Assembly: GCF_001619985.1 (NCBI RefSeq)
Contig: NW_017264208.1
Location: 296,351-352,448, forward strand
Reading direction: 5' to 3'
Length of the DNA stretch: 56,098 bases
DNA from: Xylona heveae TC161
Lineage: Eukaryota > Ascomycota > Xylonomycetes > Xylonales > Xylonaceae
The notes under the pieces were generated by a model. That model saw nothing but the letters and a program-made list of their open reading frames with translations, was not told the origin of the DNA and searched no databases. Position 1 is the stretch's first letter; each line of letters starts with the position of its first letter. Shown piece after piece: positions 1 to 48,444 of this stretch. A program made the position numbers and the translations under genes.

Positions 1-1441
1 AACAATCTACTCAGTTAAAATCAAAAGCATATCCTACTCAGTACATACAAATACTAGCTAAATTAGCTACTATTTTACCTACTACACCAGAGCTAGAATC
101 CTACACAATAACTGAATGGCCCCCATGAAAACAATTTCCAGCTATATCTATCATCAAAGACAAGCACTCTAAGTCTAATATGATAGAAAAACATTAAACA
201 ATACTAAATATCCTTCAAAGACAAATTCCAGAAGAAAATTATATAGTATATACAGATGGATCATTACAAACAACAGTAGGAGCAGGATGTTATATTACAT
301 ACTGTCAAAATATATATACTTTTTCCTGGCATCTAGACTCATATATGGAAATCTATGATGCAAAACTCTTTGCTTTAACTAAAGCAATAAAATGGATAGC
401 ATATAGATCAACTATAAATTCCAAAACTATCTGGATATTTACAGACAATCAAAGTATCTTAGATACAATACAACATTCTATAGCTGGACCTAGACAACAA
501 CTACTACTACAAATCTTTTCTGCTATTCAAGTCCTCAAAGACAACAACATTCAAATCCACCTTCAATGGATTCCAGGACATCAAGAAATACTAGGAAATG
601 AAGAAGTAGATAAAGCAGCCAAGCATAGAACAACATATACTAACAAACTATACAAGGATGCATATACTTCATACAGCTACTTGAAAAGAAAGTTGAAAAA
701 GCTTATCCTTGAGCAATGAATCTACCAATGGCAAACTATTTCTAAAGGAGAATATTATAAACAGTTTCAAACCTTTCTACACTGGAAGCTATTTGAGGGA
801 TACCAAGACCTTAGAAGAAAACTAGTTACAAATGCCATTTAACTCAAGATAGGACATAGTTATTTCAAATCCTACCTATACAGGCTATCTACATATGAGT
901 TAAAAAAATGCAGCTCTATCTACAATTTTACTCAGAGTCCAGCTCATTTATTACTGTCCTGCTCTTAAACAAAAGAAGCTAGGAAAGTTTTATTACAAAA
1001 AGTAAAGAAAAAAGTTCTTACTTTGAAAGTATTATATACTAGAAAAAACTAGAACCACCTACTAGAATATCTAGATACTACTAAAGTAGCATCAAGAACA
1101 TGGTTACTACATCAAGAAGGACAACATCAACAAGAAACATTATGGGACTGGAGTAGACTTCAAGATAAAAGTACCCTTTGAGATTGTTCAAAAAAACAAA
1201 ACTAAACTTTGACTCTCTTTTATTACTTTTATTACTCTTACTTTGTCTATTTTTATTATTTTCTTTATATTGTACTAATTTTTTTTTGTTTTATGTTGAT
1301 AAATGATATCTAGTATCAGCTTGACTAATTCTAGAGTGACTTTCCAAAGCTCAATACATATTTTATGTACTTAAATCATAGACCCTGCCATAGCTTTAAG
1401 ACTGCATACAAAATAAATAAATAAACAAACAAACAAATAAA
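1..1441 (+). mobile_element. Degraded 3' end of a Tad1-like LINE (RNase H region and tail)
   Basis: This is the 3' part of a non-LTR retrotransposon that starts before the window. Read in the frame with codons at multiples of three, it shows an RNase H domain: a YTDGS motif near 249, GAG, the glutamate in MEIYDAK at 345-365, the FTDNQS aspartate near 438, and HQEILGNEEVD near 579-611, so all four acidic catalytic positions and the histidine are still readable. Downstream, from 720, is the C-terminal region typical of fungal Tad/I-type elements, with a C...H...C zinc-like pattern near 909-962. In-frame stops lie at 126, 195, 717, 840 and 966. Several of them could come from CAA to TAA changes, the pattern expected of RIP. 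The element ends in an (AAATA/AAAC)n tail at about 1408-1441. It is not functional. The clade is inferred from motif style only. Confidence 0.8.
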
Positions 1442-2880
1442 AGTTTATTCTATTATTATAATCTATATTATATAGTTAAAATTATTTTTTTAGTAACTAA
1501 TCTTTATATAAAGATATATTTTAGTATAACAAAATACTATAATAAACTAATTAAATTTTGGCATAGTTTTATATAAGGCTTATTTGTTTAAATAATATTA
1601 AACTACTTTATATATAATAAAAAGAAAAAAATACTTATACTAAATAATATTATACAAATTAAAAAAATAAAAAACTTTATCAAGAGTTGTATTATTTTTA
1701 TTAGTCAAAACTTTCAAAAATAGTTTCATGTTAAAAAACTATTTACATTATATTAAAACTAATTATAAGCTTGAAAAGCCTTGCAAAAAATAAATTAATA
1801 GACTTAAAAAGAATTTTTAATATAAAACTAATTTTAATTAAAAATATTAAGTTTAAAATTATTTATATACAAATAGTATAAATTTTTACATTAAATTATT
1901 TATATTTTAGAATATATTTTAATTATTTATATTTAATTAAAATTTTTAATAATTTTATAATAATATTAAATTTTATTAAATACTATAAATTATTTTTTAA
2001 AAAAAAGTACTTTTAGCTCAATAATATAATATTAAGCTTTTAAAATTAAATTAGTTTATAAAGTAAGCTAGTTTCAAATAGAAAACAAATTATTATAATT
2101 TTTTTTTATTTTTTTATATTTTATATTTTTATTATCTTTAAATTATTTTGAATTAATTTAAAATTATTTAAAATTATTAGTATTAGATTGATAATTTTAA
2201 ATTCATTTATATAATATAAAATATTAAGTATTTTAATTAAAAAATATTTTTTAAATAAATTAAAAATTTATACTATCTATATATAATTAATCTATAAATA
2301 ACTTTATAATCTTTTAACTATTGTTATACTATTTTAAAAAGATGACAAACTATTACTTTTATTAAATTCTTTAAGTTTTAAAACTTTAAAATTTTTTATA
2401 TTTAAATTAAAATTATAATATATATATATATTGTTACTTTTTATACATTTTTGTCTATTCAAGTAATTTATTTTATTTTTTAAAAAAATAAAATAATAAT
2501 AAGTTCTTTTTAATTACTAAATTCAAAAATTTTATATTAATATTAATATTTACTTTTTATAAATATTTAATTTTGAACTTATTTATTTTTAAATATTTCA
2601 AATAAATCAAATATATTATAAATTTATTGAAAATATATTTCAAGTTAAACCAATTTAAATGTAAATTATTTTCAAAAAATTGAAAATAACTTTTGAATCT
2701 TTAATATAGATTGAAAATTTTTTGTATCAAAAAGAATTGAAAAAAAAAAAAAAAATTGAATTTAAAAAATATTTTTATAATATAGTAATAAGGTTTATCA
2801 ATCTAGCATTTAAGGTCTAGCTCAAAATATCTAGAATTGTACTCTTAAATTGCACGTTTTATTGAATATTTACTATCTGT
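1442..2880. other. Extremely AT-rich gene-free block
   Basis: This block is almost entirely A and T, rich in TTTAAA, TATA and AATT words, with a run of 14 A near 2739-2755. No reading frame of note occurs and I recognise no coding motif. It is best read as repeat DNA decayed by RIP-like C-to-T change beyond recognition, joined to the LINE relic. The edge at about 2875-2885 is abrupt: composition returns to normal about 140 bp before the DAM1 start codon. Confidence 0.7.
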
Positions 2881-3020
2881 AGCTAAGTGGCTGCGAGGTC
2901 CCTTCCAGCGGTCGCGTTCCACACCTTTGCAAGCGACTGTAAACAACTTCTTACCGTGGCTTCCAAAGATCGAACAAATACACAATTTTCCCTACACCTG
3001 TCGAAATTTACAACGACATC

Positions 3021-3822
3021 ATGGATGCAGATAACCAGCACATTATTCATCGTAACCGGAATCATTCTTCCCGACCTACAACCCCTTTGCGACCGCCATC
3101 TCGCTCCTCTGTCCGAGAAGCACAATCTCATCGCGATGGCAGGGCACCTGCAAGGCAACATCAGCCGCCTCTTGCAAACCTAGAAATGGCGTTCGCTGAA
3201 TTATCCGAATACATGGTTGATCTTGAGGCCAATTTCATGCACCTCCACATAATGCACGAGAGCATTGCGCGCTTTAGTGAGAGTTTTGCTAGCTTCCTTT
3301 ACGGTCTCAATATGAATGCCTTTTGTGTCGATTTCCCAGAGGCAAGGCATCTCTCTATGAAATTCATTGACTATCGCTGAAGCATATTATAGGCACCTGT
3401 TCTGGACTCATTTGAGCGGGCCAGTCATACTTCTGAATTGAGTAAGCTCCTTGGATCCAGAAGTCAAAAAGATAATCATGGATGACCAGCCGGACACAGC
3501 CAGTAATACGGAGGCTAGTCGTGCAGGACTTGATGGAGATACGAGTTTCTTGTGATGATTTCTTGTCCGCGTTATCTGTGATGCTCACACACTGACATTC
3601 GTATTCAGGACTACCGATACGTCCTTCATCACTGATCCCAAACCCCCCTTGAAAGTTCCACCGCATCAGGCGGGATCGAAACTACCCACGAACTCCCATC
3701 CTCTCAAGTATAAAGGCTCCGTACATCGAGATACGGTTGGGAGGGGTAGAAGCCGCGAAACACATAGAAGTGGATTGGCCAGACCAAAGACAACAGGTGC
3801 CAAATATCGAACTGCACCGTAG
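3021..3822 (+). CDS. DAM1: DASH/Dam1 complex subunit Dam1, four exons
   Basis: Dam1 is a subunit of the fungal DASH ring that couples kinetochores to spindle microtubules. Exons are 3021-3341, 3393-3441, 3500-3551 and 3609-3822, giving 211 residues. The family signature is clear: PTTPLRPPSRSS near the N-terminus, then the conserved core (FAELSEYM, DLEANFMHL, ESIARFSESFASFLYGLNMN, AFCVDFPEAP), and the C-terminal TTDTSFI motif at the start of exon 4, followed by a basic tail. Intron 1 (3342-3392) has a GC donor (GAG|GCAAGG); using it restores the family's FPEAP sequence, while reading through gives a short false end at 3380. Introns 2 and 3 are GT-AG (3442-3499, 3552-3608), and intron 3 has a CTGAC branch site. 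The ATG at 3021 fits the family N-terminus. The exon 2-3 junctions are less certain than the rest, because that region is poorly conserved. Confidence 0.9.
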
Positions 3823-3926
3823 ATTTACGATTAATGAGTGCATCACAAACCAATTGACCTAGATGCAGAATCTTTCTGTTAACGGACGTTGCCGAGGATC
3901 ATCTTATGTCTGTTTACTTAAGAATT

Positions 3927-4472
3927 ACGGCTAATTACGCAAATGGGCCGCGTTTTTGCAATCCTTTCAAAAATGGGTTTCGAGACCGTGCAATTACTTG
4001 CATGGACTACATAATTACTCGGATGGGCTCGGTTAAACTAGATAGAGCAAGTTAGACTCCATTCTTTTAACAATATACTAGTAAATTCAGGTACATACCA
4101 GCATACAACGTACTCTGTACAGTGAGTGCCAGGCTGTCCGAGCATCCCAGGACAAGGTGCCTCTAGAGATAACATCCAACAGAATCCATAAGGTACCATA
4201 GCTACCGTAGGAGTCAACAACACAATTGGAGGAGCTGCAAGTTTGTATTGGTGTATATAGACTTGGCAACCAGTTGAAATATCCTAGGAATCACTAGAAA
4301 TCTAGATTATTTATAAGAAAATCACTGAAAGTTGTTCCTGTGCAGCAATATACCTCTGGCCCATCTCAGTAAACCACCCGTCATTTCCATGGTCAATCGC
4401 TGTAATTTTGTATTCTTTTGGCCCATTTCTGAAAGGATCACTTAAACGCGGCCCATTTGTGTAATTAGCCGT
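3927..4472. mobile_element. Non-autonomous inverted-repeat DNA element (MITE-like), 546 bp
   Basis: The ends are inverted repeats: ACGGCTAATTAC(G/A)CAAA and on through ATGGGCCGCGTTT, 29 positions with one mismatch. Similarity resumes further in (ATCCTTTCA(A/G)AAATGGG), so the imperfect terminal repeat spans about 54 bp. The direct repeat AAGAATT flanks it at 3920-3926 and 4473-4479, which fits a 7-bp target-site duplication. Inside each end a unit resembling AATTAC-N3/4-ATGGGC recurs (for example near 4011-4030, and in reverse near 4357 and 4419), like subterminal transposase-binding repeats. No transposase frame is present, so movement would need an enzyme from elsewhere. The superfamily is uncertain: hAT elements make 8-bp duplications, and 7 bp does not settle it. 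Confidence 0.8.
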
Positions 4473-19940: not shown

Positions 19941-22900
19941 TTAAGATTGGTGCGCCTTGGCCATGGTGTTCAGCGCGCTGCCATCCTTGAACCACTCGAT
20001 CTGGGATTCGTTGAAGGTGTGTGAAAGCTTCGCTTCCCAAGTCTTTCCATCCTTGGGGTGCACCCTCAGAGTGATGGGCTTGCCAACAGCGAGTTCGGTG
20101 CAAAGAAGGTCAACCTTGTCATCCGGGTTGATCTTATCGTAATCGGCAGGGTCAGAGAATGTAAGAGGAAGCATTCCCTGCTTCTTCAAGTTCGTTTCAT
20201 GCTGAATTGAGCGTTAGCTTTGCCAGAAAGATTAGAACCATCAAATAAAAACTTACGATACGAGCGAAGCTTCTGGTGATGATGGCAAGACCGCCAAGGT
20301 GTCGTGGTTCGAGCGCCGCATGTTCGCGCGAGCTTCCTTCGCCGTAGTTCCAGTCGCCAATAACTACCCACTTGACTCCCCGCTTCTTGTAGTCTCTGGC
20401 AGTTGCAGGGACGGCATCGAATTCGCCAGTGGCGAAGTTCTGAACATTGTTTGCTTCGCCATTCGCAGCATTGACAGCACCAATCAGCATGTTGTTGGAG
20501 ATGTTATCAAGGTGACCGCGGTACTTGAGCCATGGGCCGGCCACTAAATTATCCTTTTAGCAAAGTTCCATCTTATCAGAAAGGAGTGCACTCACTTGAG
20601 ATATGATCGGTTGTAGTCTTTCCCTGAGCCTTGATCAAGATGGGAATATCAAGGGCATCATTGCCATCCCAGGCCTTAAAGGGAGAAAGGATCTGGAGGC
20701 GATCACTAGAAGGGGAGACAGCGACATTGATAGACTCGCGGTCTGCAGGAGGGGCCTGGTAAGTGTCTCGGCCCGGATCGTAACCCGATGCCGGTAAACC
20801 ATCACCCTGAGGAGGGGAGAGCAAGAAGTCGTTGCCATCCTTGTCCTTGAGAGTGTCGGTAAGGGGGTTAAATTTCAGGGTTCCAGCCAAGGTCATTGCA
20901 ACGACAAGGTCGGGAGAGGTAACAAAGGCATGGGTTGCAGGGTTGGCATCATTGCGACCAGTGAAATTTCGGTTGTAGGAGGAGATGATCGAGTTAGGCT
21001 CGCCCTTTTTCACGTCACGGCGATCCCACTGACCAATGCAGGGACCGCAAGCATTTGCCAGGACCATACCACCAAACTCCTCAAGAGTCTGAAGTTGACC
21101 GTCACGTTCAATAGTAGCACGAATCTGCTCAGATCCCGGAGTCACGGTGAAAGTAGACTTCGCTTTAACTCCGTGATTAAGTGCATCTCGAGCAATGGAC
21201 GCAGCACGGGACATGTCTTCATACGAAGAATTGGTGCACGAGCCAATCAGACCGACCTTCAACTCCTCAGGCCATTTGTTTGCGTCAACGGCCTCCTTGA
21301 ACTGGGAAATCGGGGTAGCCAAGTCAGGTGTGAACGGCCCGTTAATGTGGGGCTCAAGCTCAGAAAGGTTGATCTCAATGAGCTCGTCGTACTCAGCGCC
21401 ATCATCCTCGTGGAGCTCCTTGGCATAGACTCGAGCAAAGTCGCCAATTTCCTTGCGCTTCGTGGCAGCAAGATAATCGTACATGCGATCATTGAAAGGG
21501 AAGAGCGAAGTCGTGGCACCGATCTCGGCACCCATATTGCAAATAGTACCCATACCGGTGGAGGAGAGGGAGCTCACACCAGGACCGTGGTACTCAATAA
21601 TTGCGCCGGTACCGCCCTTGACGGTGAGGATACCAGCAACCTTAAGAATAACATCTAACAGAATACGTTAAAACTCATCTCATGGAACAGCTTCGCAATA
21701 AACCTAAAAAAAAGTACCCACCTTTGGGGGAAGTCCATCCAGACAGCTCGCCAGTCAAGCGGACGCCGATAACTTTGGGGGCCTTGAGCTCCCAGGGAAG
21801 GTTTGCCATAACGTCAACGGCATCGGCTCCGCCAACTCCGATGGCAGCCATGCCAAGACCACCAGCGTTAGGAGTGTGAGAGTCAGTGCCAATCATCAAA
21901 CCACCGGGGAAGGCGTAGTTTTCCAGCACAATCTGGTGGATAATACCAGATCCAGGCTTCCAGAAACCGATATCGTACTTCGCGCAAGAGCTGGACAAGA
22001 AGTCGTAAACCTCTTTGTTGATCTGTTGCGCCCTGGCAAGGTCTTTCTCGCCACCAACTTGAGCTTCAATCAAGTGATCGCAGTGCACGGTAGTGGGAGT
22101 CGCAACTGAGGGCATTCCGGCAGACATGAATTGAAGGATGGCCATTTGCGCTGTAGCATCCTGGCAAGCCACACGATCAGGGCGCAACTTGAGGTAGCTC
22201 TTGCCACGCTCGATCTCCTGGCCATGGGGATCATCAAGATGAGAGTAGAGAATTTTCTCAGCGTACGTGAGAGGCTTGTTCAGCCGGGATCTAACAATAG
22301 CCAGATTCTCTGACATTTTCCTATCGAATCGGTTAGCATAAACAAACTCAAGACGAAATAACCCCATAGAGTGGGAGAACTATGGCTGGCTCGGGCAAGG
22401 CAAGGTTCTTAGACCCATCCACCCAAGCCAGTGGTGCTTTGAAGGCTGGGCATACTTGTAGTTGATGTAATGGCCCTAGATCTCATTGATTAGCCTAATT
22501 GAAACAGTCTCACACATTATAGGATTATAAAAGGGGATGATGAGGAAAGAAGGGTCATTGGGTTGAAGAAAGACTTGCAAGGCGGGGGTCTGAGGAGTAT
22601 TACATACCTTTTCCCAATTGGTCATCTCGACCTTCTTATCGAGAGGGGAGTCGCTAACAGTAGCCAGAGATCGAGACCCGGTGAGCTGGAAACTTCAAGT
22701 CAGAAAAGACTCAATTATGAAGCGAAAAGTAATCTCGCAGCACTACTCTCGTGATGCTTCAAACAAAGGGAAGAAATAGCCCATACCATTCGGAGACTGG
22801 GAGTCTGCACCCAAGGAAAAATTAGCATTCAATTGCTTTCGCATGATATGATGGTGAAGCGCAGAATCCGAGTCCTGGAGAAAAGGAACGCTGAAACGGA

Positions 22901-47597: not shown

Positions 47598-48444
47598 ATG
47601 GCAGCCTGCATCTTCTGCAAGATCATCAAGGGTAGGTAGAATATTCTCTACTGCGCGGCTAGGCAAAGCGCGAAAAATATACTCCAATCCGTTCGATGAC
47701 GTCTATTCTCATTTGTTTGTCTACGTTTAGGGGATATTCCCGCTTTCAAGCTCTTCGAGAGCGACAAGGTACTCGCATTCCTCGATATTCAGCCATTAAG
47801 TTATGGCCATGCGGTATGTATTTGCATTCACCAATCAGACCATGACACATTCGTTATGTCCCTATCGAGTGGTCCTGGAGCTAATCAGAGAAATGGCGTT
47901 CGTTATATTTAATTTAGCTGGTCATCCCTAAGCACCACGGCGCAAAGATCACAGATATTCCCGATGATACTCTGAGCGAAATTCTGGTATGCGATTGCCT
48001 TAGCTACTTCACAAATTCTTGCCGCATCTCTACGGCCGCTTTTACAGCTCACATCCGCCCAAAGAAATGGAGCCGCCGATCAACTCAGCTGATACTTGGA
48101 ATGGTCGCAGCCCGTTATTAAGAAAGTTGCCAGTGCTACTGGTGCCGAGAACTACAACGTGCTTCAGAACAATGGCCGTCTTGCTCACCAAGTCGTCGAT
48201 CATGTAAGTCTGAAACCCTTTGCTTCTGTGCACATTTTCTAATATTCTGTGCGTCTATAGGTTCACTTCCATATGGTTGGTTGCCGCAATGTCACTGTTG
48301 CCCTCTTGCGTTTACAATCGCTGAACACTATCAAAGATTCCCAAGCCAAACGAGGCCGAAGGACTAGGCATCGGTTGGCCAGCCAAGCAGGCTGATATGG
48401 AGAAGCTCAAGCAGCTCTTCGAGACGATCAAGGCCAAGGTGTAA
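47598..48444 (+). CDS. HNT1: HIT-family adenosine 5'-monophosphoramidase Hnt1, six exons with a 15-nt microexon
   Basis: Hnt1/HINT proteins hydrolyse AMP-lysine and other AMP phosphoramidates. Exons are 47598-47631, 47731-47813, 47918-47986, 48111-48203, 48261-48275 and 48337-48444, giving 133 residues. CIFCKIIKGDIPAFKLFESD, LAFLDIQPLSYGHALVIPK and NVLQNNGRLAHQVVDHVH are typical. The HIT motif H-V-H-F-H-M has His93 at the end of exon 4, and His95 and His97 in the 15-nt exon 5, which encodes VHFHM only. The final exon gives IPKPNEAEGLGIGWP. Introns around the microexon are GT-AG (48204-48260 and 48276-48336, the latter with a GTTGGT donor and CAAAG acceptor). Start and length fit the family. 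Confidence 0.92.

Follow-up and report, generated by a model that had tools for sequence, protein, structure and literature searches.

The window, by which we mean the whole stretch of DNA analysed here (56,098 nt), forms the end of a 352,448-base contig (contig 16) in a 24.3-Mb genome of 17 contigs. Gene content and short introns suggest a filamentous ascomycete. The final window position (56098) is the last of the contig (352448); neither doubled TTAGGG nor doubled CCCTAA was found in the window, so this telomere repeat does not terminate the contig. At the other margin, positions 1-2870 are AT-rich (28% GC over 1-4000). Read by eye, this region looks like a decayed retroelement, perhaps shaped by repeat-induced point mutation, with an RNase-H-like reading at approximately 240-640. 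Further along, a 242-aa open frame on the plus strand (20930-21658) lies opposite a predicted four-exon gene on the minus strand (19941-22316), the latter read by eye as an aconitase gene. The 242-aa frame is probably a shadow frame.

The plus strand of the window carries a gene of the HNT1/HINT type at 47598-48444, which is split into six exons and encodes a product of 133 aa. Its five introns measure 99, 104, 124, 57, and 61 nt and are all of the GT...AG type; the first is in phase 1, and introns 2 to 5 are in phase 0. The features of the gene are collected in Table 1. In the spliced product, the histidine triad H-x-H-x-H reads HVHFHM and spans residues 93-98 (His93, His95, and His97). An earlier note on this DNA had proposed coordinates for exons 4, 5, and 6, all of which hold upon spliced translation of the window. 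The same translation bears out its central observation, namely, that two of the three histidines in the triad (His95 and His97) come from an exon of only 15 nt and that His93 closes exon 4. The presence of a microexon in HNT1, as first noticed, is therewith confirmed. An exon 4 start at 48089 was also considered and was ruled out, since the reading from 48089 runs into a TAA; the exon starts at 48111.

Table 1. Features of the HNT1 gene, in window coordinates
Feature	Position	Strand	Evidence and sequence context
Exon 1 (34 nt)	47598..47631	+	ATG; MAACIFCKIIK plus base 1 of the following codon; the 6iq1 alignment begins at residue 2
Exon 2 (83 nt)	47731..47813	+	Translation, 6iq1 alignment
Exon 3 (69 nt)	47918..47986	+	Translation, 6iq1 alignment
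Exon 4 (93 nt)	48111..48203	+	Last residue His93 is triad histidine 1; border ...GTCGTCGATCAT / GTAAGT
Intron 4 (57 nt)	48204..48260	+	GTAAGT...CTAAT...TATAG
Exon 5, 15-nt microexon	48261..48275	+	GTTCACTTCCATATG = VHFHM, with His95 and His97; between ...TATAG and GTTGGT
Intron 5 (61 nt)	48276..48336	+	GTTGGT...CAAAG; acceptor very weak, without CTRAY branch motif
Exon 6 (108 nt)	48337..48444	+	Begins IPKPNEAEGLGIGWP...; border ...CAAAG / ATTCCC; runs to the stop codon
Nine bases (IPK)	48337..48345	+	Lost if the better-scoring in-frame acceptor 48345 is used

The HNT1 product matched 41 distinct PDB sequences at an E value of ≤0.001. The best match was 6iq1 (E value of 4.2e-54), a Hint chain, adenosine 5'-monophosphoramidase, which we take to be the Hint protein of Candida albicans; the NIT-FHIT chain 1ems came far behind, at 8.7e-09. 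The alignment with 6iq1 covers HNT1 residues 2-131 and contains a single gap, an 8-residue insertion in 6iq1 that falls in the part encoded by exon 4. From residue 72 to residue 131 it is ungapped, running across HVHFHxIPK and both microexon junctions, and both junctions are therefore fixed by protein conservation. The IPK that follows the microexon is conserved in 6iq1 and 3ksv. We checked the triad by alignment in 5 of the 41 matched PDB sequences, and H-x-H-x-H stood at the triad position in every one of them. Moreover, the spliced product scored 87.2 bits against the Pfam HIT domain (PF01230), for which the cut-off is 21.5 bits. Among solved structures, its nearest relative by sequence is a HINT enzyme and not FHIT, GalT, DcpS, or aprataxin, and the product classifies as a HINT-branch HIT protein (HNT1), a putative adenosine monophosphoramidase.

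No second close copy of HNT1 turned up when the genome was searched in six frames. This search returned six matches, four of which are exons of HNT1. The other two are weak: an FHIT-like sequence at C2:2078655 (26% identity to HNT1) and a sequence at C2:2052164 (L011; 24% identity), in whose frame no HxHxH was found. A genome search for HIT relatives gave five matches, two of them HNT1. Of the remaining three, L001 and L002 each score above the cut-off by themselves and L004 below it; the L004 frame was read by eye as GalT-like (HPHGQ). By our own reading of the sequences, L001 is FHIT-like and L002 is aprataxin-like, and each carries its triad (HVHAH and HLHIH, respectively) in one unbroken frame. 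A scan of viral contigs for relatives produced five pattern matches, none of which was confirmed.

So short an exon could be a chance reading. We searched for the coding pattern VHFH[MVLI] in 512,196 bases, i.e., both strands of 256,098 bases (the window together with 20 further stretches from this genome). The pattern occurred twice, once in HNT1 and once elsewhere (L030). When it also had to be preceded by AG and followed by GT, with Tyr or a hydrophobic residue in the middle, HNT1 was the only occurrence left in the 512,196 bases. The rarity of the pattern with splice borders rules out a chance reading. Exon 5 is internal, measures 15 nt, has AG/GT borders, and encodes conserved residues (VHFHM); microexons are described as ranging from 3 to 30 nt in size (PMC11121469). 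Exon 5 thus looks like a real microexon, and the conservation of the protein argues for its inclusion in the mRNA.

To score the splice sites, we used a gene model trained on the same 256,098 bases (window plus 20 further stretches). This model called 65 genes, and the signals GTRNGT and YAG stand out clearly in its 69 introns; its intron cost was chosen by hand, and an earlier run with too low a cost (over 4,000 introns) was discarded. The rank of a site is the number of training sites scoring equal or lower. None of the 69 training introns comes from HNT1, and the training sites are scored in-sample, whereas the HNT1 sites are scored out of sample. The model disfavors very short exons and weak sites: none of its 33 internal exons is under 81 nt, and it predicts no HNT1 intron and misses the microexon. 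As a check on circularity, we used coding potential alone to call four flat sets of introns (55, 48, 43, and 32 introns). These sets are noisier, with YAG in 39/55, 35/48, 31/43, and 24/32 introns, respectively. A CTRAY branch motif 8 to 50 nt from the acceptor was present in 41 of the 69 training introns versus 11 of 69 after one shuffle.

The two introns that flank the microexon scored very differently. Intron 4 reached a summed score of 9.94 (donor rank, 48/69; acceptor rank, 33/69; rank of the sum, 48/69), and its branch motif CTAAT lies 18 nt from the acceptor. By these measures, intron 4 is well formed, and the upstream donor finds a good partner nearby. For intron 5, the summed score was 3.48 (donor, 8/69; acceptor, 1/69; sum, 2/69), and no CTRAY motif was found in it or in HNT1 intron 1. 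The poor acceptor was reproduced in the flat sets, where 0/55, 0/48, 0/43, and 0/32 acceptors scored as low or lower. In contrast, the donor of intron 5 ranked 39/55, 37/48, 31/43, and 26/32 in the same sets. We therefore dropped the notion of a weak donor, which the low rank in the training set had indicated, and only the weak acceptor stands. In every one of the four flat sets, the sum for intron 3 was below that for intron 5, and in one of them, the intron 3 acceptor fell below all sites. Since the donor rank was not reproduced and intron 3 sums lower, intron 5 is not uniquely weak.

Nine bases downstream of the normal intron 5 acceptor (48336; score of 0.14), a second acceptor at 48345 scores 3.2, and the two form a possible tandem-acceptor site, in frame, whose use would remove IPK. 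We rejected 48345 as the normal acceptor given the conservation of IPK noted above and kept it in view as a source of leakage. For recursive splicing around the microexon, in which removal of an internal intron upstream (a stwintron) would rebuild a donor, a single internal acceptor choice was tried; the one rebuilt donor scored (CAT/GTTCAC) is very weak at -0.65, below the lowest of the 69 training donors (-0.56).

We also spliced the gene in silico in alternative ways. Omission of exon 5 yields an in-frame product of 128 aa, in which VVDH is joined to IPKPNEAEG and one triad histidine is left. As the earlier note had claimed, skipping is therefore frame-neutral and deletes His95 and His97. 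If skipping extends to 48345, IPK is lost in addition to both histidines, also in frame. Retention of intron 4 leads to a stop ending at 48242. Retention of intron 5 keeps His93/95/97 and gives a frameshifted C-terminal tail with a stop ending at 48395. Use of acceptor 48345 keeps both the triad and the frame at the expense of IPK.

The earlier note had gone further and suggested that splicing could switch the enzyme off and create an inactive dimer partner. According to this model, regulated skipping would yield an HNT1 that still folds but has no catalytic activity, and this form would damp the active one by pairing with it. In its favor, the length of the exon is a multiple of three, skipping removes His95 and His97, and the 128-aa form, at 69.3 bits, remains above the Pfam threshold for HIT. 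By way of the human HVHLH motif, we equate H112 of HINT1 with His95 of HNT1. Catalytically dead HINT1 (H112N) was reported to still promote p53-mediated apoptosis (PMC6648240), which also counts in favor of the model. The splice-site scores point both ways. The skipping pair 48204/48336 scores 6.32 (9/69 training sums are as low) compared to 3.48 for the normal intron 5, and the pair 48204/48345 scores 9.38 (36/69 as low); skipping outscores normal splicing because intron 5 itself is weak. On the other side, a good acceptor and a branch motif lie close to the donor of intron 4. The scores alone cannot decide against skipping. The residues encoded by the microexon belong to a core strand of the HIT fold. 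Since five residues would leave that strand, the 128-aa product is doubtful as a stable dimer partner. Aspergillus niger is a black Aspergillus. In that species, the exon II of rtnA, which is 15 nt in black Aspergilli, is described as skippable in a transcript; however, its skipping depends on a stwintron (PMC6616335), and the single rebuilt donor scored at HNT1 gets only -0.65. Taken together, loss of the motif and preservation of the frame stood up, and the use of skipping as a switch and the stable dimer partner found no support. We regard damping by a dead partner as highly improbable.

A broader form of regulation would be conditional skipping (junction 48203/48337 or 48203/48346) or retention of intron 5, resulting in an HNT1 that lacks the triad or has an altered C terminus and that plays a nonenzymatic role of its own. 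We consider a regulated switch of any of these kinds very unlikely; the regulatory interpretation is unproven and is not the likeliest.

Alternatively, the variable part could be intron 5 and not the microexon, giving rise to an mRNA that retains the intron or to the use of acceptor 48345. Consistent with this possibility, an acceptor as low as that of intron 5 was seen at only 1 of 69 training sites and at none of the flat-set sites, CTRAY is missing, and 48345 is the better-scoring acceptor. In plants, moreover, splicing of a flanking intron is reported to lag for 50 of 69 constitutive microexons (PMC8831610). Arguing against it, the low donor rank did not recur in the flat sets, intron 3 sums lower in all four of them, 28 of the 69 training introns and HNT1 intron 1 also lack CTRAY, and the conserved IPK argues for 48336 as the normal acceptor. 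Variation centered on intron 5 is unlikely.

Our preferred reading, to which we assign a probability of roughly 0.85, is that exon 5 is a 15-nt coding microexon whose inclusion is normally constitutive and that it belongs to the sole HNT1/HINT-type gene our searches of this genome found. The VHFHM codons lie between two phase-0 introns. Each of these short introns would be recognized across itself (intron definition) and then removed, and the tiny exon would be joined in, which would rebuild the full triad His93-x-His95-x-His97 in the mRNA. Inclusion in the cell would presumably be near complete. Most ascomycete introns are described as short and as being paired through intron definition (PMC6616335). 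For this reason, a 15-nt exon would not have to be recognized as an exon at all and need not be an obstacle to splicing. In Cryptococcus, exons are reported to go down to 1 bp (PMC3990503). Several points count against constitutive inclusion: intron 5 is poor, the skipping pairs score higher, and the gene model predicted no HNT1 intron. Furthermore, microexons in general splice less efficiently according to a plant study (PMC8831610), and exon skipping occurs in fungi (PMC3990503, PMC6616335), being among the isoform types described for Cryptococcus (PMC3990503). If splicing of HNT1 leaks, retention of intron 5 or use of acceptor 48345 is at least as plausible as skipping because the intron 5 acceptor is weak; any leakage would probably consist mainly of these forms and not of regulated skipping.

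HNT1 exon 5 is, then, a neat but ordinary microexon, most likely always included. It provides a clear case of a catalytic motif that rests on a 15-nt exon in a small and widespread enzyme. It is also an annotation trap, in that a gene model without the microexon would call HNT1 triad-less. If regulated skipping were true, the arrangement would amount to a compact means of turning a conserved nucleotide hydrolase on and off.

With the Hint chain 6iq1 and human HINT1, HNT1 shares the HIT domain, the HxHxH triad, and a colinear sequence; among HINT-branch HIT hydrolases, only its gene structure is noteworthy. In the open-licence literature, we found no paper joining "microexon" with "histidine triad." Among the papers on HNT1/HINT1 splicing that were listed, none deals with this exon, as judged by titles and the beginnings of abstracts, and the words "exon" and "intron" do not occur in the main text of a paper on a Verticillium HIT protein (PMC13116075).

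Microexons of ≤15 nt are described as numerous in plants, where they lie in core protein motifs and are mostly absent from the reference annotation (PMC8831610). The plant set includes 69 constitutively spliced microexons, and for 50 of them, a flanking intron is spliced slowly (PMC8831610). The positions of plant microexons are conserved across species (PMC8831610), whereas the present analysis of HNT1 covered one eukaryotic genome. Exon II of Aspergillus rtnA, like HNT1 exon 5, measures 15 nt (in black Aspergilli), and its skipping fuses exons I and III (PMC6616335). However, skipping in rtnA relies on a stwintron that lies upstream, is donor-disrupted, and has alternative acceptors (PMC6616335), and no arrangement of this kind was recognized at HNT1, where one rebuilt donor was scored. 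In contrast to the HNT1 triad, no catalytic residue is tied to rtnA exon II in the passages of that paper that we drew on (PMC6616335).

A further parallel is Trichoderma Xlr2, where two of the Zn2Cys6-domain cysteines are encoded by a 20-nt exon that is used in a glucose-dependent manner (PMC11121469). According to the same source, functional microexons had been undescribed in filamentous fungi before Xlr2. Xlr2 differs from HNT1 in that its exon, at 20 nt, is not a multiple of three, in that it encodes a transcription factor, and in that its regulation was measured by RNA-seq (PMC11121469). Retention of the adjoining intron 1 is reported in Trichoderma reesei, and no reads were found to join exons 1 and 3, so that Xlr2 does not represent simple skipping (PMC11121469). 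The Xlr2 microexon was missed in most gene models (PMC11121469), just as that of HNT1 was missed by the model used here. In both genes, a tiny exon of a filamentous fungus encodes part of an essential motif (PMC11121469).
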